DNA from: Paramecium tetraurelia
Taxonomy: Eukaryota > Ciliophora > Oligohymenophorea > Peniculida > Parameciidae
DNA: 64,000 bases
Assembly: GCF_000165425.1 (NCBI RefSeq)
Contig: NW_001799566.1
Span: 124,001 to 188,000 of the forward strand
Reading direction: 5' to 3'
Below, one piece after another: positions 12,462-44,805 of this stretch (position 1 is the first letter of the stretch; every line of letters starts with the position of its first letter). The translations under genes and the position numbers were made by a program. The notes beneath the pieces are model-generated. The model saw only the letters and a list, made by a program, of their open reading frames with translations. It ran no database searches and had not been told where the DNA came from.

Positions 12462-12608
12462 TTAAATTTTAATATTTTTTGTTATTATATGAACTCTCAT
12501 TTGAATAATTGCAAAGGAGAAATGTGATTTGATTATCACTGAATTAATATTAATTATAGTATTTGAATTAAATAAAGCGTATTAGAGAAACATAGATATT
12601 TTAACATA

Positions 12609-14462
12609 TCAAATCAATTATGTTTCATAATAACAAATCAATTTCATCTTATCATCTAATTCTGCTTTTAGAAAGTTTATAAAATCCATGGAAGAACAAT
12701 CTAAAGTAAACCGTTTCAGCAGATTCATTTGTTTCAATACTTAGATTCCATATATGATATCATTTTAATCTATTTATATCCCCTTTAAATCTAAGTTCAA
12801 GTTTATCACAGATTTAATCGATGCTAAACTACTGAGAACACTACTTACATTAATATTCTTTGCCCTAATTTACTTGTACAATAAAAGTACTTATTCAATA
12901 TTATCTCGATATCTCGAACTATTGCGAAATCTCCCAACAATGACATCAACTTATCTAATTCCTTATCGTCAACTTATTAATTAAACAAATTGATCTTAAT
13001 TGAGAGCACAGTTGATTAAGAAAGTTAAGCTGTAAGTCTTTATTACTCTTCTTCATTTATGGAGTCGAACCTTAAAAAGGTCACAGGCTGGTCTTGTGTT
13101 TGATTCAAATAAAGACTTTAAAATGGGATCACAGAACTCTGAGTAGCCAAAGAATGTAGGTTTTTAATTACAGCTCGTTGTTAGATTTAATTTTTCAAGC
13201 TCAACATTAAGATATTGGCTATTTCATCACTTATCTAAGTTAAAAATAAGTTTGATTACCCATATTAATTCTTTATTTTTGCGATTAACTCGTTAACAAC
13301 TTTCGGTTAGTGGATGCCGTCTAACTCTTTATTTGTACAAAGTAGAGCAGCCTTGACTATGCATACTCCAAATTGCCAACTATCTGCCAATTTTCCATGT
13401 AATTAGATTGAATTCAGTTTTTCAGGTGGAAAATATATTGAGTCATACTCTTGGTCTGTTCTAATGGCATGTCCATCAATTACATATCTTTCTTTATATT
13501 TTTCATTTGGTTCTTGGATTCCCGTTAATTTAAGATTATCATGATAGATAATGATTGAAGTAGGTGTTATTCTATTCGGATAACACTCATTGTTGTGAAG
13601 GAAGAGTATTGCATCCAATAACTTTTAGATTAAATTCCAAAGTTCGCTATTGGAGAAGGGAATCTACTTATTTCTTTTTTCTATTATAATTTCCTCTAGA
13701 TTTTATCCTTCCTAGACTTCAATAGAGAATAATTTAACAACATCATACTTATTCATTGAGGAGAGAAAATGTTCAAAGTGCTATTTTTTGCAAGATCTTG
13801 GTAGTTTAATTGACCCAAACATGCTATCCATAAAATTCTGTTTTGAATGCAAAAAGAATATATGAATTACTTTACAAATGTAGGTGAAATCAGTGAAATA
13901 TAAATGCGTATTAAAATAATGGCTAAATAATTCTTCACTTTCATTTCTTAAAACATAGAATTTATGCAAAATAACTTTTCTTCCCTGCATTGTACAGAGT
14001 GTGGTTTTGCCAAATATTGATTTTTTGAGTTCCTTTTGTGGTTTAATCAATTTGAAGAGTTCCGATTTAGTGTGTAATTCCTTTGACAATTCCTTCTATC
14101 TAATGGCATCTGCTCCTTCTCTTAAAAACTCCAATAAGGGTTTACATAAAGGAGGTGGCGATTTCATTAGTTATGAAAAGTATTCAGCTATCAATTGTTC
14201 CTTCTGCTTCACAAATTTGTTTTCTCCCATAAAGGATTGAATTAAGTCTTTCTTCGGAAATTGGGGTAACTTAATTTAAAAATCTAAGGCTTACTTGGCG
14301 ATCTGGATTTAAATCTTATAAATGGGAATGTAAATCAGATAAGAAACTATATTTGACCCTAATTTCCCTTTGCTCAAAAGTTTGTGAATTGAAGATACGC
14401 ATTTTGTACAAAACATTATCGGATTGAGTATCCACTCCGATTATTTTAGCATCATATATCAT
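12609..14462 (-). CDS. PX-domain protein with degenerate kinase fold
   Basis: Introns of 25 and 20 nt are removed, giving 602 residues plus TGA 12609-12611, an exact fit. Residues about 1-110 form a PX domain (VKYSFLSDLHSHLQDLNPDR, then LPQFPKKDLI), which binds phosphoinositides on membranes. Residues about 150-340 look like a protein kinase fold without catalysis: a possible lysine strand (RKVILHKFYVL), a C-lobe helix DAILFLHNNECYPNRITPTS where the HRD motif should be, no DFG, and IYFPPEKLNSI at the APE position. The last 250 residues contain leucine-rich, repeat-like stretches. PX-pseudokinase combinations are known in endosomal sorting proteins; whether this is orthologous to any is not clear. 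The upstream in-frame ATG at 14501 adds only an AT-derived stretch and was not used. Confidence 0.75.
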
Positions 14463-14569
14463 TCTATTTATTATATTATAAATTATATAGAAAATTAACA
14501 TAATATAATATTAATGTTGAATTATAATTTAAATACCATAATGAATTGAAAACTAATATAAAATCGATA

Positions 14570-15975
14570 TCAAAACTAACCATAAACAGCTCCAATCCAA
14601 CCAAAGACAACCCCCATGATTTCCAAAATTACTATGGAATAATTCAGTTTATCTCTATACTCCTTCAAGTAGATCAGAACAGGAATCAAACAAACCATAG
14701 TAGTACCTAAAAGACCTCCAAGTAATGTGATGTAGCGACTTTACAATAGAAATAAGCATTTACTTGATGTTGGGTAAAATTAGAGCTAGTATGGCACTTC
14801 CAAATTGGAGTACTAAAGTTGAATAGATGTGAATTTTGGATCTAAAAGTATCAACACTATCAACCTCAAAAGTAATCTTCCCATCCTGAGCTTAAATCCT
14901 GAGATTTCTATGTTTGAGTTGGTATTCCATCTCGTCAGATAATAACATATCATGAATGATTTGTCTACATGCTAATATATTCAAGGGAACAGCAAAGAAT
15001 AGAGCCATTGACATGCCCAATTTTCCCACAAAAAAGAGATCCCCATGATAATTGTAAATAACCCAAGGTTATGTGTCATCTCCAAATCTTAGGTATCCAC
15101 TAATACAGATTAGTGAATACACTATAAAACAGATCAAGCATTGTCTTTTCCATATTTTAGACTAACGTGAGATTGTTGGATTATGCAATTCCTTTCTAAT
15201 TGGGAATATAAACAAATGACATAGATAACAGAAGAAGGTCATTGCAAAAGTAGTGAAAATATTGAAATCTACATCCACCAATTTGATTTTAATGTCATCG
15301 TTGTATGAGCCTCTGGCAAAATAATCAAGTGAAGTTAGGGAGGTTATGTATATCACTGAAATTACTCCAACCAATGAAAAATATCTTAATTTGTAAAGAG
15401 TTTTCTGAAAAGATATCAATAGGTTTGGTATTATGAAGATTAATTAGGTTATTATTGCCAGTTCTCTTTGATCGACAGTTATCTCGAAATATCTGAATAA
15501 TTCATATATAAATAATTGAAAAGAGATCTAGATTTATGTAATTCCCAATAAACATTAACAGATAGTTAATATTTCGAAACCTCTCTTCATCTTATTTCCT
15601 AGACTCATCTGAATCAATTCACTATAGGATGAGCATTGCAAATCGCCTGCACTCCAACTTAAAATGTGCATTGATATACATGAGATTATTCCACAAAGTG
15701 CAATCAACAGTAATTCAATTATGAGTCCTTAATCTTTTGCTCTATCTTAAATAAAACTCAAATTATATACATGGCAAACCCAACATCCCAACACCCAAAC
15801 AAGGAGCAAGCAAACTGATAATACTCATTCTTATTCCACCTTTTTTCAGAGGACCAAAAGTACGTTGGCACCAATTCAGTTACTGTTCTTTCTCCTGCAC
15901 TGGCTCCTCCATCTCCATGTAGTTGCTAATGAAGGTTGATTGCATGTCACTGAAATGTACTTGTGAATTAGACAT
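14570..15975 (-). CDS. Amino-acid transporter, AAAP/SLC36-38 type
   Basis: About 440-residue membrane protein. The N-terminal cytosolic tail (start MSNSQVHFSDMQSTF) leads into the family's first helix signature, KKGGIRMSIISLLAPCLGVG then MLGLP, the unwound G-rich helix that lines the substrate path in amino acid/auxin permeases. Some ten further hydrophobic segments follow, including FFCYLCHLFIFPIRKELHNP and YSIVILEIMGVVFGWIGAVY close to the C-terminus. Stop is TGA 14570-14572. Several short introns are required, the first just after the MLGLP block. It probably moves neutral amino acids with protons or sodium across the plasma or a vacuolar membrane; substrate and location cannot be inferred. 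Confidence 0.8.
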
Positions 15976-16352
15976 TATTAATATAATGAATGACATTATT
16001 TTAACCAGAAGAGAACTATTTAGAATTGGAATTCCCTAATACTTCTTAGAAAACTCGAGTCAACTAAACGATGATTCCTTATCCATTAAAGTCATTATGG
16101 AATACTAATTCACTTCTTAATCTCGTATGAAATACGATTAAAACATTCTATAAAATTAAATAATTCTATAATAAGTTTATGTCTCCTATTGTTTCACATT
16201 CTACTAATCACTATTATAGCATTTGTCTATTTTATTATATTTAAGAAAGTCATAAAAACTCATTAAATTTCAATATAAATAAATTGATTCTTAGCATCAT
16301 AATTATTAAGTATTAATATTTATTATATACAATTTAAATAAATAAATAAATA
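15976..16352. other. AT-rich divergent promoter region
   Basis: 377 bases between the divergent transporter and CtIP/Sae2 genes. No open frame of interest; poly-A/T tracts only. Confidence 0.55.
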
Positions 16353-16971
16353 ATGTTTTTCTCACCTTAATTTTAAGAATTTATGGAAAACGAAAAATCT
16401 ATCTATTCCACTTTGTAAAAACATCTCGATATAATATTAGTACACTAATTTACTTAAATAGGCTAACTAATTAGATTTCACTTATCATTCTGTGTTTCAA
16501 CTATTTTGCCATATATCCATTTTACACAATACTCAAGCGAGTGTCTTTTAGGCCCTCATGAAAATGATTGGTAGTTTGGTTGAATAAAATAAATAGACAA
16601 CAATAAGTGAAGTACTTCTTCTTGATAATCAACCAAAATCAACCAAGTTTTTACAACCAAATTTTCTTGAAATATTTGAAGACAAATAAACTCAAGCATC
16701 CAAAATATAAAAACCATTGAATGCAAGCGAAGAAAACAAAAAAATTTCAATATAAACAGAAATTGATCTTCCAAAAGAAAAAGTGTTCAGAGAAACTGTT
16801 AAAAACAGAAAGGAAAGACAATAAATCAATGCTCATGAGTGCGAAGAATGTGAACAATTTTATAAAGCTTTGCCGAATTCGAATTAAGCAGAAAAATTAA
16901 AACAGGATTTTTCAAGGCATAGGATTAATCATAAGTTAAATCAAGAAAAATTACTATTAACTCCAGAATGA
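16353..16971 (+). CDS. CtIP/Sae2/Com1-like DNA end-resection protein
   Basis: Exons (one 22-nt intron, GTACAC...AATAG, near 16438) give exactly 198 residues. The last 63 residues carry the CtIP/Sae2/Com1 C-terminal domain: a basic helix VFRETVKNRKERQQ, the CxxC pair (HECEECEQF, C156 and C159) and the invariant SRHR motif (180-183), ending LLLTPE. The TP of TPE matches the conserved CDK site of the family. In this family the protein activates the MRE11 complex to start resection of double-strand breaks in meiosis and repair. The N-terminal 130 residues are short compared with animal CtIP and are helical, suitable for the self-association seen in Sae2. The protein stops (TGA TGA) just where the usual TPExFW ending would continue. 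Assignment rests on motif order. Confidence 0.85.
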
Positions 16972-17170
16972 TGAGAATTTCTTAATATATATTTATGTGT
17001 ATTCTTTTTTTAAAAAGTCTTCATTCCTGAATAAAACAATTAAGCATTCGAAAGAATTTTTTATTAATTAACAATAATAAATTTTACTTCAATATTTATA
17101 AATATTTAGTATATATTTTAATAAATTATTTTTTCTAGAGATTTAAATTGAAAAATATTTATTTATAATT

Positions 17171-17822
17171 ATGGATTTGCTAAAAGAAGGTTGTTGATAG
17201 GTATTAAAACTTCCATCTACTTAAGACCACTTATTTAGTGAAAGAAGAGTAGTTGAATTTATAAAATGGATTATATTCTTTATTAAAAATAATTATTTTC
17301 TGGTATTTCCAATTTAGCCTGGATTCATGTTAATTCACTCACTTTCTTTATTATTCTTCAATTGATCCTTAATTTACATAGCTTTCATGACGGAAATATT
17401 ATAAATTAATTGATAACAGAAGGATTTTAAAAATCAACATTCCGTATTATAAGCAATTATTTGAAGTATTAAAATTATATGATTTTCAAATAAATAAAGT
17501 AATTGAATAATAATAAAGATTTATTATGTATTCTAAGTATTGTTCTATTTTTAGGTTTTTTGAAAATGATTGTAAAGATGTTGTTTTAAGCTGAATGGGG
17601 AATTACCATTATCATCGCCGTAATCATGACGATACAATAATTTAAGCTTTAAGAATCGTTGCATAGAAGTTTCTATCGAAGAAATTATTTATTTCACTCT
17701 ATTTAATAAATTTTTGTTGACTTGAACAGCACATTGATCTAATGCATAATTGGGGAGGAAGATTGGATTTGAAGAAAGTTCAGAAATTGGAAGACGAGGA
17801 GAATGACGTTAGGAGGAATTGA
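17171..17822 (+). CDS. Probable small membrane protein, exon structure unresolved
   Basis: Begins ATGGATTTG; with a 36-nt intron it reads MDLLKEDHLFSERRVVEF and runs into hydrophobic segments (IKWIIFFIKNNYFLVFPI, FMLIHSLSLLFFN). The same frame then meets TGA followed by more coding-like hydrophobic sequence (SLIYIAFMTEIL). A further hydrophobic stretch (GFLKMIVKMLF, GITIIIAVIMTI) and a charged, coding-like C-terminus (GGRLDLKKVQKLEDEEND) lie in other frames up to TGA 17820-17822. I could not join these with acceptable introns. It may be a real two- to four-helix membrane protein with unusual introns, or a decayed gene. No family is recognised. It sits tail-to-head between the CtIP/Sae2 and MORN genes on the same strand. 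Confidence 0.4.
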
Positions 17823-18038
17823 TTTTAATTGATTACCGTATTAAAAGAGGAAGGATCTAATTTTCTGAAAAAATGATTTCTACTGACATTTCTGAGATAT
17901 TAAATTAATCTAGGAGTATGATTTCTCTTATTTTTCATTAATTATAATATCTCAATAATTAAATACACATGAATTAATAGATATCATAGGAATATTTCAT
18001 TTAGAAATTTTCATCTTTACATTTGAGTGAGAGTAAGA

Positions 18039-18952
18039 ATGAATTTAAGCGTAGCTGATGATGATACCTCAAGAAGTGAAAGTCCTGTTTTGGATTCCAG
18101 ATTAATGGAGTTTGTGGGTGGATTGCCAGCTCATATAAAAATAAAATTAGAAAATTTCAAACCAAGCTAAAACTTCTAACTTTCTAAACAAAACGACGGG
18201 AGCATCTACTTTGGTATGATGGAGGACAGCCTAAAACATGGAATAGGTATTTAACTATGGCCCAAAATTGGAAACTTATTAAAAGGGTATAAATGAATAT
18301 TTAAGTTTTCTTAGCACTTGGTAAAATGATTTACTGGAAGGTGTGTGTACGATGTATTATTCTAATGGAGATATGTAATTATAATAAAGTTATAGTAGTT
18401 TTGAAGCTCAATTCTCTCAAGGCAAGACTGTAGGATTTGGTATGTTTAAATCGGAAAAAAAAGTTGTAAAAGGTATAAATAGTTGTAAATTATTTTAGGG
18501 ATCTGGATAAACAATTAACTCCAGGGCGAAGGACAAGAGATGAAGAGTGATGGCACTACTTATCAAGGATAGTTTTGGGACGGGAGGAAGCAAGGGAGAG
18601 GAATACAAATGTTTAGCGACGGATGCAAGTAGAATTCTTTAATAAATCTATATGATATATAGGATTCTTTCAAAATAATAAATTTGAAGGAGATGGACTA
18701 TTTACATGGAGTGACGGCAGTTATTACTAAGGCCAATTTCATCGAGGATTAATTAGAGGACTTGGGAATTACAATAATAATAATGGGCTTTAATTAATGG
18801 GGCAGGTATTATATTTTAATTGAGTTTATTAGTTTTAAGAAATTAAAAAATCAGAGCTGCCAGAGTAGAATCTCAATTAAAATCTACAAACCATATCATT
18901 TTTGAACTAATATAACTAAACATTGCTAATCGAAAAGATACGCATTCTCTGA
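18039..18952 (+). CDS. MORN-repeat protein
   Basis: Start MNLSVADDDTSRSESPV; stop TGA 18950-18952. Short introns occur near 18246, 18474, 18628 and 18805. After an acidic N-terminus the chain contains MORN-type units of about 23 residues: DGSIYFGMMEDSLKHGIG, GEGQEMKSDGTTYQGQFWDG, GRGIQMFSDGCK and FEGDGLFTWSDGSYYQGQF. MORN repeats form beta-hairpin sheets that hold membranes, lipids or axonemal partners; several ciliary and cortical proteins use them. The C-terminal 45 residues are Gln/Asn/Leu-rich without a known motif. No enzyme domain is fused, so it is probably a scaffold. A second, longer MORN gene is at 62.8 kb. Confidence 0.82.
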
Positions 18953-19109
18953 CTTGATGATTTATATATATATCAATTTCATTTAAACATTTTTCGAAGC
19001 ACTTAGAATGACTACATAATAATTAATTAATTATATAAAAAATAAAATTCGTTTTTGGAATTTTTAACATTTAATTATCAGGTGTTGGCTTCATTATTAA
19101 TTACAATAA

Positions 19110-20334
19110 ATGTATAAATTAGCACTCTGCACATTGCTTATCCTTAGCGTAACAGCAATCGATGTCACCAACTCAGTTTGGACAAGTCACGACCAAAAAG
19201 CTTTTGCCTAAATCAAATAATCAGGTTGGGGAAATTTCATTTTGAACTTTGGTGAACTCCATTTATAAACAGGAGGTATCCTCTCAGAATTAAACACCGA
19301 AATTGCCAAACTTGTAATGCCTTTTTTCATTAATTTATTATAGATTGACGAATTGGATGAGGAATTGGCAGAAATCCATCACTAATATGCAAGAAGAACC
19401 GATATTCACAACAGAGAAGTCTAAAGACTTGAATAAGAAATCTAAGACAAAGAAAGAGGTAACCCTATTAACCCTATCCCATCTAGAGGTCTTCAATGCT
19501 CACGATTTCTATGATAATGTGTTGATCCCATAAAGAGATAGATTTGCTGCTCAACTTGAATAATTACAAGAAAACATCGCTTAAAACAGAAGAACACTCA
19601 ACGAGGCAACAGTCTAAAGAGCTAAAGATCATGCTGAATTTGAAGCTTAAGTTGCTGAACACAATGAAGCTATCGGTGCCATCGATGAATCCTTATAATT
19701 GCTCAGTCAATTGGAATCCCCATCCCTTGTTCAAATCCAAAAGGTCTAAAAGAATTTGACCAAAATCGAATAATCCCTCAAGAGACACAGCACATTCTAA
19801 ACATTCATTAAGACTCTTTTGGAAATTGCAGTTGAAGCTAACTTTGCTGATCAAGGTGCTCTTAAAGAAGTATCAAATTCTTATCATGATCCCCCTAGAT
19901 TCTTACCGCATTCAACAATTTGAGAGTCCAATTGGTTGACTCCCTCAATCAACTCACCGCTGACGAAGCTGAAGCTTAAAAGGACTTCGAAGCAAGAGTC
20001 ATCTAATTAAACTCAGAACATGCTGAATTCTAAAGAGCTGTTATTGTAAAGACTGCTGAAATCGAGGCTAATGCAAGTATCCAATTCATACTATCATCTC
20101 CTAGACAAGATTGAATAAACCCTTGATTTGATCGACGTCTTACACGCTGATTTGGATACTTTGAACGGATAATTGTAAGCTGAAAACGACGACTATGCCT
20201 TTGCAACTGATGTCTACAATGCCACCGTCGCTGAATACAACAAGGAATTGAATGCTGCCCATTAAGCTTTGGACTTATTAAACCAACCAAGATTCACCGA
20301 TTATGTTAAATCATAACTCAAGGGTGCATTTTGA
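19110..20334 (+). CDS. Trichocyst matrix protein
   Basis: Third trichocyst core protein and the best preserved here. ATG 19110 opens a signal peptide ([18 protein letters not shown]); four introns (30, 28, 29 and 28 nt) are removed, leaving 1110 bases, 369 residues plus TGA 20332-20334. The mature chain is almost wholly helical: [60 protein letters not shown], ending DYVKSQLKGAF. Expected processing into matrix polypeptides and assembly into the crystalline trichocyst body follow from the family, not from this sequence. The exact phase of every exon supports an intact, expressed gene. Confidence 0.92.
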
Positions 20335-20659
20335 TATTATTCATTCAATAATAGTAAATGAATTCATTGTATAAACCATTCTTCATTAATTCATACAACT
20401 CAAATAAGACTCCCTTACTCATTCTTAATTTCATTTGTATCTACATTTTCAGATCATACTTGTAATCTAAGAATTAAGAATAAATGTTTCAGAATAATAT
20501 GTAACAAAATAATTATTAAATAATGTTGATTAATCCGAACATTATGTGTTGGAATAATAATACATACCACAAAAATAATAACATTAAATTTTGCATTTCA
20601 ATATGCATATGCAGAATATGATTATAATAGAATGGAACAAAACTATAAATGATATATTA
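20335..20659. other. Convergent intergenic region
   Basis: 325 AT-rich bases between the 3' ends of the trichocyst gene and the PFK-2 gene. No gene seen. Confidence 0.55.
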
Positions 20660-22413: not shown

Positions 22414-22971
22414 TCAATTAAGTTTAAGATTTCTTATTTCTTGAAGCGGCTACTCTATTCCTCGTATTCTCGCTGTTAAATTTAAGTCTTTTGCCATCAA
22501 GGTCACCCTTTTAGCATGAAAGGTACACTACACTGAATCCTCGAATAAATCCACCATATATTGTTCAGTTAATGTTTATAGGCATTCTAAGGATTTACTA
22601 GAATATCTAAATTCTTTAAACCCAAGTTCATCTGATACCTTGATCCCTGCCTACCTTACAAACCTTTAAAATCCTGCTCGGCGGCAAACTAATACTCCTG
22701 AAGTTTAAAGTTATCTAATCTCCTATAATACTTTGGACATTGGTTTATTTCTCTTTTATAGTTTGTCCCTTGCTTTTTATACTTGAATTCCAGAAATTCT
22801 TTCATCTCTCTTTCTTTCTGATTTTTTGCTTTCCTCCTTTGATTTTTCTGCGATTATGCTTTTCTCATCTGAATTAAACAAAGAATGCATAAAACTCGGC
22901 ATTTATTCAACGTTGTCCACTTAAAAAGATTAGTTCTCATTTTCTTTTGCCTTCTTTTTTCTATTTGCCAT
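22414..22971 (-). CDS. Divergent histone H3 variant, CenH3 candidate
   Basis: Intronless reading of exactly 185 residues. Residues 1-80 are a long, Lys/Glu/Ser-rich tail unrelated to the canonical H3 tail (no ARTKQTARKS). Residues 83-171 are a histone fold of H3 type: QEIRQLQTSGVLVCRRAG aligns with the alpha-N segment, FQRFVR with alpha-1, CLQTLTEQYMVDLFEDS with alpha-2, and HAKRVTLMAKDLNLTARIRG with loop 2 and alpha-3. Loop 1 is about five residues longer than in H3 (KVSDELGFKEFRY). The residue after LFED is Ser instead of the Thr of canonical H3, and the loop-1 Phe is Tyr. Long loop 1, loss of that Thr and a divergent tail are hallmarks of centromeric H3. In ciliates such a variant would act in the germline micronucleus. 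A non-centromeric H3 variant is possible. Confidence 0.85.
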
Positions 22972-23133: not shown

Positions 23134-23667
23134 ATGCAAGAATTATAGACCTCATTGCAAAATTTTCTTGATAAATTGAATGAGAATAATTAGAAATTCT
23201 TAGAATTAATATTTCCTCAATAAAACAAACCTGAGCCTTAAAAAAAGCAAATAACTACAATTGATTAAGAAACACAAACAATTGATGGCAATTTAGAGAA
23301 TTAAAAGACTTCTGCTCTTCTGATATTTCATTAAACTGAATCAAATGTGGTTGATGATATGATCAAAGAATTTGAATAAAAATTAGCATAAAAAATAGAA
23401 TAGCAAAAATAATTTGATTATTACAAATAGCGAATTGCTTAATAGTAATCCCAAATAGACTATTTAAAAAAGGAATTATAATCTAGATTACTATCAAAAT
23501 ATGGTCCTAATCGTTTATAAGTTGAAAAAAATAAAAAAGAAATCGATAAATATTAAAAAATGATAAAAAAATAATAATAAGAAAATAACCGCATAAATCA
23601 GATAAATTAAAAGTATGAAGTGTTTGAAAATGCTCTTCAGTCAATTTAATAATCGAAAACACTTTGA
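23134..23667 (+). CDS. Small coiled-coil protein
   Basis: Uninterrupted 178-codon frame, 177 residues, TGA 23665-23667. Very Gln/Lys/Glu/Ile-rich, with most Gln from TAA/TAG. N-terminal MQELQTSLQNFLDKLNENNQ; residues about 85-170 form a long coiled coil (FEQKLAQKIEQQKQFDYYKQ). No other domain, signal or membrane segment. Shares a 162-base divergent promoter with the histone variant. High A+T and Gln content make the frame less certain than a conserved gene, but 177 codons free of TGA with an ATG in context support it. Confidence 0.65.
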
Positions 23668-25751: not shown

Positions 25752-26044
25752 TTTAATCTTATTAAGTTTTTTAGAATTCATTGTAATTTTCAGAATTAAA
25801 TTTATAATTTACATAAAATATTGTATTCATTGCAATTATGTTATGAAATTATTGATAAAAGTATAATTGTTTAAAAAAGGAGCATTTTTATCATAGTAAT
25901 TTGGTTAAATTATTTTAAATCATAATGTGATAAATGTTGGAGATGAAATCAAGATAGAGTTTATAGATTTTGAGTAATCTACAAATTAGTCTTTGGTATT
26001 TTTTTTGAAATAATATTAAAAATAGTAACAATAGATTATATAAT

Positions 26045-27537
26045 ATGAGAAGATTAATATTTAACGCAGATTAAGTAAGAAGGGCTTCGACGGTTCTATA
26101 AAAGTTTGATATTAGATAAAGTTTAACAGGGTCAAAGTAAGAATCATATTAAAATTGAGCAACAAAGATCTGATTGATGTCATGGTTTATGTTTTATAAA
26201 AGCCTTGCGAGGTGAGAACATCAACGGATGTCTTTATGTTGAGGTCTGCAACTAGATCAATCGAGTTTTTCAATAACTTAGAGTCTGATTTATTGCATGA
26301 ATAATGTTGCAAATCATTGAAATATAAGTATTTGCCAGCGGGGCATTTCGTATTTAAGGAAGGTGATATTGGAGACAAATTTTATATCATAATAAGTGGG
26401 AGAGTGTAGGTTTTGAAGGACTTTAACCCAAATGATCTTTAAGCATCAATATATGATCATGAAATAAAACAACTATCGAATGGTGATACTTTTGGAGAGA
26501 GAGGAATGGATGTTGAAGCCACAAGAACAGCATCTTGTAGAACTCTTGAAAATTGTCATTTGGCTTATTTGGAGAGGGAAAGCTATTTAACAATTTTAAA
26601 TAATGTTAAGCATTTGATGAAAAAGACATATTTTGAGGAATTCGCTAATTTGGATTTGTTTCACAATTGGAAATTTCAAGACATCAAGGCATTCTATGAC
26701 AAAGCTTTTATAAAGAAGTATTCCATGAATGCCTGTGTGTATAAGGAAGGAGGTTCATTGGAATATGTGTATATTATAAAGAAGGGTGAATTTAAAATAG
26801 TGAAGACAGTATTAACATCCACAATAGATTTGAATGAGATGTTCATGGGAGATTTCGAGAAGATATTGTTAGGAATGAATCATAAATAGAAAACACTATC
26901 AGAGATATTTGAAGCAAAGTATCAAAGGAGAAAATTTGGAAATAATTATTATAAGCAGATGAAGAAACTTGTAACTATAAAATATATTACAAGTGGTCAA
27001 ATGTTTGGAGAAATGGAATTGCTAATGTAAAATCAAATCACAAGAACTCATTCGGTTTATTCTAATACTGATCAATCAGAATTATATTAATTAAAAGTAG
27101 AACATTTCGAAGCTATTCTCGATAAAATACCTTAAATTAAATAATAATGGATTCAACTTTCAGAACAGAAGAACAAAAACTTCATGAAGCAACTCTTGTC
27201 TTATGAAAAAAACTTTAATGATCTGACTGAGGCCAAAAAGGAAATCGAAAAAAACATCAATCTTGACTTTTTGGAGATTGGAACTAGTGAAAAACCAAAA
27301 CCAACAAAACCATTTCCCAGGATTGATACTGAAATCTCTACAACCAGAAAACAAAAATTCATCAAAACACAGTTAGAGATGCAATTGTAATAGCAAAGCA
27401 AAAAGAAATTCTTGATTAAAAAACAATACTAAAATAGCTATTTCTTCAATTCGACCACGTCAAGATTGAGGACTGACGAACAAGAATAAGAATAAACCCA
27501 AAATGAATACAATTTTGTCCATCTCACCTGTAAATGA
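26045..27537 (+). CDS. Cyclic-nucleotide-binding domain protein
   Basis: One intron (23 nt, near 26140) leaves 489 residues plus TGA 27535-27537. Two cNMP-binding domains are visible. The first (about 85-165) has LPAGHFVFKEGDIGDKFYII and the phosphate-binding cassette FGERGMDVEATRTASC, with the conserved Gly-Glu and Arg. The second (about 215-345) has VYKEGGSLEYVYIIKKGEF and a cassette FGEMELLMQNQITRTHS with an insertion between its strands. The C-terminus is Lys/Gln-rich and may be coiled. There is no kinase, channel or docking domain: it lacks the membrane helices of a channel and the inhibitor site of PKA regulatory subunits. Probably a cyclic-nucleotide sensor, perhaps in cilia; the partner is unknown. 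Confidence 0.85.
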
Positions 27538-27592
27538 GAATAATTAATATGTATATATATATATAGCTATTTATGTATTGCAACTATATGTT

Positions 27593-28188
27593 TCAACCTA
27601 TTTGGACTCCTCTCCCTGTAAAGGCTTGAAACTATCCTCTCTATGCTTATTGTTAAGGTTGAGCTGTAGCTTAATTGTAGTATGGTTGCTATTAGTATTA
27701 TTACTATTATTGATTATTATTCTATGCCCAATCATTCTATTGATCTGTTTGGATCAACCCTCCCATCTAATCGTATTGTAAGATTTTGAATTCTCTGTAT
27801 GCCAAAAATGCAACGTAACAAGCACCAATGTAATAGAAAAAGAGGATAAAATATGTTACTCCTATTCTTGTTGGTTAAAAGAATGAAATGCTCAATTCAA
27901 CATTCATACCAAAAAATATAAAAATCATCAATAACTAGATAAATAGAATTTAAATACATTTTATAAGAAGTAAAACACAGCAATCACACAATTGCAATAA
28001 TTCAATTATGCCCATGCCATATACAGTATGAATATAGTAAAGAAATCATAAAATCCTGCCATTTATTGCAAGACGAACAATTTAATCAAGCCAACCACAA
28101 ATTAACTTACGCCTAAAATTTATAACATCTAAACTGCTTTTTTTGTTCCTTCAGTAGGTGGTGGAATCGATTAAAAAGGTATGCACAT
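27593..28188 (-). CDS. Four-helix membrane protein with Gln-rich tail
   Basis: One 23-nt intron (GTATTT...TCTAG) leaves exactly 190 residues and TGA 27593-27595. Start MCIPFQSIPPPTEGTKKA, then four hydrophobic segments (LQILGVSQFVVGLIKLFVL, YDFFTIFILYMAWAQL, LMIFIFFGMNVELSI, GVTYFILFFYYIGACYVAFL), then AYREFKILQYDQMGG and a Gln/Tyr/Asn-rich cytosolic tail made of TAA/TAG codons. The layout resembles the MARVEL/SCAMP-like vesicle proteins, without a decisive motif. It ends 55 bases from the convergent cyclic-nucleotide gene. Confidence 0.75.
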
Positions 28189-28233
28189 TTATATTATATT
28201 AATAATTAATAATTAATTATAAATTTATTTTTT

Positions 28234-43058: not shown

Positions 43059-44805
43059 ATGCAAAAATATTTATTGGATAATCTGCCACTCTCTTTACAA
43101 GAGAGAAACTTGCTCTATGCAAATGGGTAACAGGTGTATGATTAAGTTATGAAGGATGGAGGATTTGTGAAGGTATTTATATAATTTTACAAAATAGGTT
43201 TATTGTCAAAGAGATTTGCCTGCATATTTAAAAGAAGATGATTGGGTGACCTTTTATTAAAGCAAGGTGATTGCCTATGAATACAAATCGATGGTTGATG
43301 GTTCTTGCATAGGCAAACCGTACTATTATAATTTTAGTGAAATGCTAAAAATCTATGAAGAGAAGTCTTTATCCTGGTTAAAACATCAAATTAGCATACT
43401 CACAATAGACCCAAAAGCTTTAGAAATGATAAATGTGTTTTTTAATTTCGATGCTCTTAAATAAAATCATGGAAATTAATATACTGATATCAGAGTATAA
43501 CAACCTGGATATGATTCATTTTCACCATGTCGAATAAATTAACAATTGGAGGGAATGAAGATTATGGATTATATAGATTATCTTAATGATCCAACAAAAT
43601 TCATAAGAAAAGAAGGATTATAAGCAGATCAACGGTTGTTTGCTGTCAATGTGAATATGCAAGGTTGGGATAAGGAGATAAACCACTTGAAATAGTTCTT
43701 ACCAAAGTGTTTGAGACCTCAAGGGGATAATGACGGATTAAGCTACTTAAGATAGGAGATTGATGGTGTCAATATACCTTAAATATATATTAAAACAGAT
43801 GGAGTGTGGACGGGAGGACATTAAGAAAACCTTAGTGTAAATGCTATCAATATCAATCATGGACCTGCAGATTGTATTTGGATTACAGTGGATAATGAAA
43901 ATGTGTAAAGATTAAGATAAAAAGTCTTAGAATTATTAGAAACTGATATTTTTAAGAATGAAGGATTGTGGTTTAAGGAACCAGAATTCTTTTTGAAAAA
44001 TGGAATACCATTTCGATACACCTTGTAAAAGAAAGGAGATGTAGTTATATTGGGTGCTGGTTGTTTACATTGGGTGAAATCCTTGGGATAAACAATTAAT
44101 ACTGCTTGGAATCAAGTTGCTTTGGATGATATGACCCTTGAAGCCATGAGTGAAAGACACAAATTGAATAAAGAAATCAATTACAGAACTGTTATTCCAT
44201 ACAAGAATCTGATGTTAGACTTATATATACATGAAAAATCCTTATCTTAAATGACAATTGAAAGAATTTAATTAGAACTTTAAAATTTCTTTGATTAGGA
44301 AAATAGAAAATTGCACCTTATAGATCCGCCGTCATCTTAATTAGTTGAATGTTGTAAAGAGGTTTAATTATGTTCCAAATGTGAACATGAAATATTCTTA
44401 TACTTTTATCATGACAATGAGGAGTATTTGTGTTTAGAGTGTGTAATAAATAAACCCAATCATAAGAGTTTACCAATTTCTATGAAATATAGATATCATT
44501 GTTTCTATTACTTATTATAGGCACAACCATCCTAATGCAACTAAGAATTCTGTTGTCCTTACACTGGAAAAACTAAATGTTCTATTTAACAGGAGTTGAA
44601 ACCAGCACAATTCAAACACAAAGGATAACCAAAACTAAATTCAATGTTACATGGAACAGATAAAATGAGGAAGAAGAAATTTGATAGAATGGATTATGAA
44701 ATTGATGCAAAAACATCTATCTATAATGATAAGTAAAAGACAAGGGGTAGAAAACAATCCATTGACAAATCATAGCCAGCAATCAAACGAACTAGAAATT
44801 ATTGA
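43059..44805 (+). CDS. JmjC histone demethylase, KDM6/UTX type
   Basis: One 25-nt intron (43173-43197) leaves exactly 573 residues and TGA 44803-44805. The JmjC core (about 150-345) reads IYIKTDGVWTGGHQENLSVN, NINHGPADCIWITVDNENV, FRYTLQKKGDVVILGAGCLH and WVKSLGQTINTAWNQV. It holds the Fe(II) ligands HxE (GGHQEN) and the distal His (CLHWV). The order and the NxNxGPxDCxW signature are those of the UTX/JMJD3 subfamily, which removes methyl groups from H3K27. A Cys-rich C-terminal module (about 415-500: CCKEVQLCSKCE, YLCLECV, CNQEFCCPYTGKTKC) matches the zinc-binding GATA-like domain of that subfamily. A basic tail (KMRKKKFDRMD) follows. In Tetrahymena a JmjC enzyme, JMJ1, opposes H3K27 methylation during conjugation; orthology is inferred. 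Confidence 0.92.

Follow-up and report, generated by a model that had tools for sequence, protein, structure and literature searches.

The locus and its product

The window analyzed here, that is, the whole stretch of 64,000 nucleotides corresponding to C195:124001-188000 in an assembly of 69.07 Mb and 231 contigs, encodes on its reverse strand a small protein that is almost certainly the centromeric histone H3 variant CenH3b of Paramecium tetraurelia (gene CENH3b, PTETG6500002001), as judged from the scaffold, the features of the protein and the number of H3 genes. The identity, localization and knock-down of CENH3b have already been published, so this is not a new gene. Under the ciliate code (table 6), the frame is translated into 185 amino acids followed by a terminal stop, with 13 in-frame TAA or TAG codons read as glutamine (Table 1).

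Table 1. Coordinates of the CENH3b gene, the parts of its product and other features of the window
Feature	Position in the window	Strand	Residues	Description
Coding sequence (CENH3b, near-certain assignment)	22414..22971	-	1-185	185 codons and a TGA stop, uninterrupted frame
N-terminal tail	22756..22971	-	1-72	Rich in Lys, Glu and Ser, without H3 tail motifs
Histone fold including alpha-N	22456..22755	-	73-172	From Pfam, PDB and alignment
Loop 1 insertion	22618..22632	-	about 114-118	Five residues, from alignments
C-terminal extension	22417..22449	-	175-185	11 residues, from alignment with five of the genome's own H3 proteins
Coiled-coil-like frame	23134-23667	+		Divergent from CENH3b; no Pfam match at E 0.001
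P450	24573-25748	+		Pfam, 179.9 bits
Cyclic-nucleotide-binding protein	26200-27534	+		Two cyclic-nucleotide-binding stretches
JmjC-domain protein	43171-44802	+		62.3 bits; possibly a histone demethylase or hydroxylase

The protein matches the Pfam Histone family with 72.2 bits (E 5.8e-20; cut-off 26.4), and four further Pfam families match it below their own cut-offs. Neither ARTKQTARKS nor a KSAP-type motif is found in residues 1-72, in the translation or in the alignment with five H3 proteins from the same genome; the border between tail and fold, at residue 72/73, was taken from the start of the PDB matches. Relative to these five H3 proteins, loop 1 is longer by five residues, the exact positions of which shift slightly between two alignments, and the residue that follows LFED is serine. 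An earlier sequence-only reading of this DNA had proposed a CenH3 candidate with an H3 fold, a tail lacking any H3 motif and about five additional residues in loop 1, all of which the alignments and domain searches bear out, the insertion amounting to exactly five residues; the C-terminal extension was absent from its list of features. Upstream of CENH3b, 162 bases separate its start codon from that of the divergent coiled-coil-like frame.

Relationship to H3 and CenH3 proteins

A sequence search of the PDB with the window protein places a chain of Histone H3 at the top (E 6.2e-18), followed at ranks 2 and 3 by Cnp1, the CenH3 of fission yeast (E 1.4e-17 and 1.6e-17), and nearly all of the remaining 57 among the best 60 of 175 matches are H3. 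Over the fold, identity is 44% to the PDB H3, 40-44% to the five H3 proteins taken from this genome, and 41% to both human CENP-A and Schizosaccharomyces pombe Cnp1 (aligned fold); the same-genome H3 proteins L001, L008 and L009 are each 40% identical over 100 aligned columns. Because H3 and Cnp1 match nearly equally well, sequence similarity demonstrates the H3 fold and does not discriminate between the kinds of H3. Phylogenetic analysis sets the protein apart from canonical H3 and H3.3, its branch measuring 3.64 changes per column, with none of the 6 inner branches at the support threshold and no supported grouping with ordinary H3, CENP-A or Cnp1; with such a long branch and such weak support, the tree proves little as to placement.

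The distinction from ordinary H3 is therefore made by the loop, the tail and the extension together with the published work, and not by similarity alone. The fold is shared by the canonical H3 and H3.3 proteins encoded in the same assembly (L001-L011), but these retain the H3 tail and a short loop 1 and lack a C-terminal extension. Human CENP-A and S. pombe Cnp1 likewise possess an H3 fold and a loop 1 that exceeds that of canonical H3 in length, whereas their loop sequences and C-terminal ends are unlike those of the window protein.

Assignment of the contig to scaffold 65

Two CenH3 genes have been described in P. tetraurelia, CENH3a (PTETG46600001001) and CENH3b (PTETG6500002001), in the available text of Lhuillier-Akakpo et al. 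2015 (PMC4770206). We read these identifiers as carrying the scaffold number, 466 for CENH3a and 65 for CENH3b, a reading that is borne out by PTETG13800001001, which is listed under scaffold 138 in the accessible part of PMC3213138. Table 1 of the latter paper, as far as available, arranges the calcium-release channel genes of P. tetraurelia by scaffold under 31 labels. Searches for two domains of these channels matched 29 contigs, which were paired in text order with 29 labels; set aside were label 134 (no match) and label 3B, regarded as belonging to 3. From label "3" onward, 18 labels land where a text-sorted list would put them, 10 exactly and 8 shifted by one contig. The pairing is tested by this spacing and by base-level anchors.

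The starts, stops and intron borders given in the Figure S1 legend of PMC3213138 provide a base-level comparison, in which 10 of 11 anchors lie at the stated base and the eleventh, the scaffold 98 start, misses it by a single base. The exact anchors comprise the ATG and TGA on scaffold 9, the TGA on scaffold 98, the ATG, TGA and an intron on scaffold 134, one intron each on scaffolds 106 and 86, and two intron positions on scaffold 44, one of which is termed a mis-prediction in that source. The anchors of scaffolds 44 and 86 fit C171 and C218, and the alternatives, C170 and C217, have no GT...AG pair at the same positions. Together, the contig order and the base-exact anchors identify the assembly as the macronuclear assembly of P. 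tetraurelia.

In this order, C189 corresponds to scaffold 6, C192 to 62, C210 to 79 and C231 to 98. Since the 17 contigs that separate 62 from 79 are matched by 17 scaffold names, C195 is scaffold 65; the single extra contig falls outside this block, after scaffold 49 and before scaffold 6. The gene count leads in the same direction: a search of the assembly for H3 yielded 15 matches, namely the window gene and 14 H3 or H3 variants, and these 14 loci plus CENH3b and CENH3a agree with the 16 H3 genes reported for P. tetraurelia in the available text of PMC4770206. According to that text, a longer loop 1, a divergent tail and a C-terminal extension are present in both CenH3a and CenH3b, so that, compared by scaffold and described features, no difference was found between the window protein and the published CenH3b, which shares its assembly, its scaffold, the divergent tail, the longer loop 1 and the C-terminal extension.

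A duplicated block on scaffold 98 and the second CenH3 gene

Comparison of window positions 5001-45000 with C231:193000-212000 revealed four pieces of the window (12607-16034, 16324-16996, 17653-20393 and 26039-28218) that match C231 in order, in the opposite orientation and with 80.8-86.1% identity, as expected of a block derived from the last genome duplication. The cyclic-nucleotide-binding protein has a partner on C231 that is 88% identical. The stretch between the last two pieces, which holds CENH3b, corresponds to C231:196310-200176, and the slot matching the neighborhood of CENH3b contains a run of 1788 N (C231:198320-200107), which may be an assembly gap. A tblastn search of C231:193000-212000 with the window protein found no CenH3, the 1788 N being uninformative in this regard. 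Two neighbors of CENH3b also lack a close copy among the 231 contigs: the next match of the P450 in the assembly is 40% identical and all other P450 matches stay at or below 49%, and that of the phosphofructokinase/bisphosphatase-like neighbor, a label given by reading alone, is 55% identical.

Across the 231 contigs, no second CenH3, that is, no CENH3a, was found, and for this reason scaffold 466 is taken to be absent from them. Loss of the second CenH3 from the genome was considered as well and dropped, given that CENH3a of P. tetraurelia is published on scaffold 466 and that the matching slot on C231 holds N. We infer that CENH3a, placed on the small scaffold 466, may belong in the N run on scaffold 98.

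Alternative explanations

A divergent non-centromeric variant comparable to H3v1 and H3v2 of Paramecium might merely resemble CenH3, and the long, unplaced branch of the window protein, along with an identity to ordinary H3 that is not below that to CENP-A, would suit such a protein. So would the serine after ED, which recurs in the H3 variant L012 (LLED-Ser). This residue, which the sequence-only reading had rightly noted as replacing threonine but had also counted among the defining traits of CenH3, is not diagnostic, since the corresponding position is occupied by Ser in L012, Ala in L013 and Thr in Cnp1 (Ala in human CENP-A). However, both L012 and L013 start with MARTK, have a loop 1 of ordinary length and lack a C-terminal extension, and CenH3b-GFP is restricted to micronuclei in the available text of PMC4770206; a non-centromeric variant is thus very improbable. 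A near copy of L012 was also observed at locus L014 (1438-1866 of that locus, +); its open frame diverges before the RIRG end, through either a shift of frame or an intron that was overlooked.

Equally hard to credit is the proposal that the window carries the essential copy, CenH3a, or its orthologue from another aurelia species, even though the assembly contains just one CenH3 and 15 of 20 residues are identical between window residues 6-25 and the CenH3a antibody peptide (residues 4-23 of strain 51; accessible part of PMC4770206). The remaining 5 of 20 positions of this peptide, which starts two residues earlier, are mismatched, and thus the CenH3a of that strain is a different protein. Moreover, the base-exact anchors are those of P. 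tetraurelia and the contig is scaffold 65, whereas CenH3a is assigned by its identifier to scaffold 466. The two proteins are 90% identical overall and 76% identical in the tail (available text of PMC4770206). The assignment of the window gene to CENH3b is hence the one followed below.

Function and fate of CenH3b

In CenH3 proteins in general, contacts with nucleosomal DNA are made by the long loop 1, whereas kinetochore proteins are recruited through the tail and the C-terminal extension; by analogy, the corresponding parts of CenH3b may play the same roles. CenH3b almost certainly replaces H3 in the centromeric nucleosomes of the germline micronuclei and is lost from the new macronucleus in the course of its development.

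The localization experiments in the available text of PMC4770206 agree with the CenH3 candidate proposed from the sequence, which the contig, as scaffold 65 of CENH3b, likewise favors. In vegetative cells, CenH3a-GFP and CenH3b-GFP are found in micronuclei only, and the two proteins co-localize as dots moving to the metaphase plate (PMC4770206); GFP tagging, which the sequence-only reading had put forward as a test, had therefore already been published with the outcome that it anticipated. Its statement that CenH3 marks only the micronucleus holds for vegetative cells and does not extend to early developing macronuclei, in which antibody staining still detects CenH3a, gone at later stages (accessible part of PMC4770206). 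The loss of CenH3 during macronuclear development, also stated there, is matched by the disappearance of the CenH3-GFP fusions from developing macronuclei in the same source.

The two genes differ in the effects of their depletion, as described in the available text of PMC4770206. CENH3a is essential, being needed both for micronuclei to divide and for sexual progeny to form; its depletion upsets the number of micronuclei and leaves no viable sexual progeny, whereas a knock-down of CENH3b, about 75% effective by GFP signal, visibly affects neither (PMC4770206). Because this knock-down has no visible phenotype, the centromere role of CenH3b rests on its localization and its likeness to CenH3a, and the window carries the apparently dispensable CenH3 duplicate. 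A more speculative view, which we regard as unlikely though far from negligible, is that CenH3b is no redundant leftover: it would have survived from the whole-genome duplication onward with a tail that diverged and with a germline role hidden from vegetative knock-down, for instance in meiosis or centromere inheritance, either sharing centromeric nucleosomes with CenH3a or forming separate ones alongside it.

For the loss of CenH3 from the developing macronucleus, the model of the authors, in the available text of PMC4770206, is that CenH3 disappears because the underlying DNA is deleted. Paramecium, to which this locus belongs, is the case in which programmed DNA deletion has been proposed to strip centromeres from the somatic nucleus (PMC4770206).
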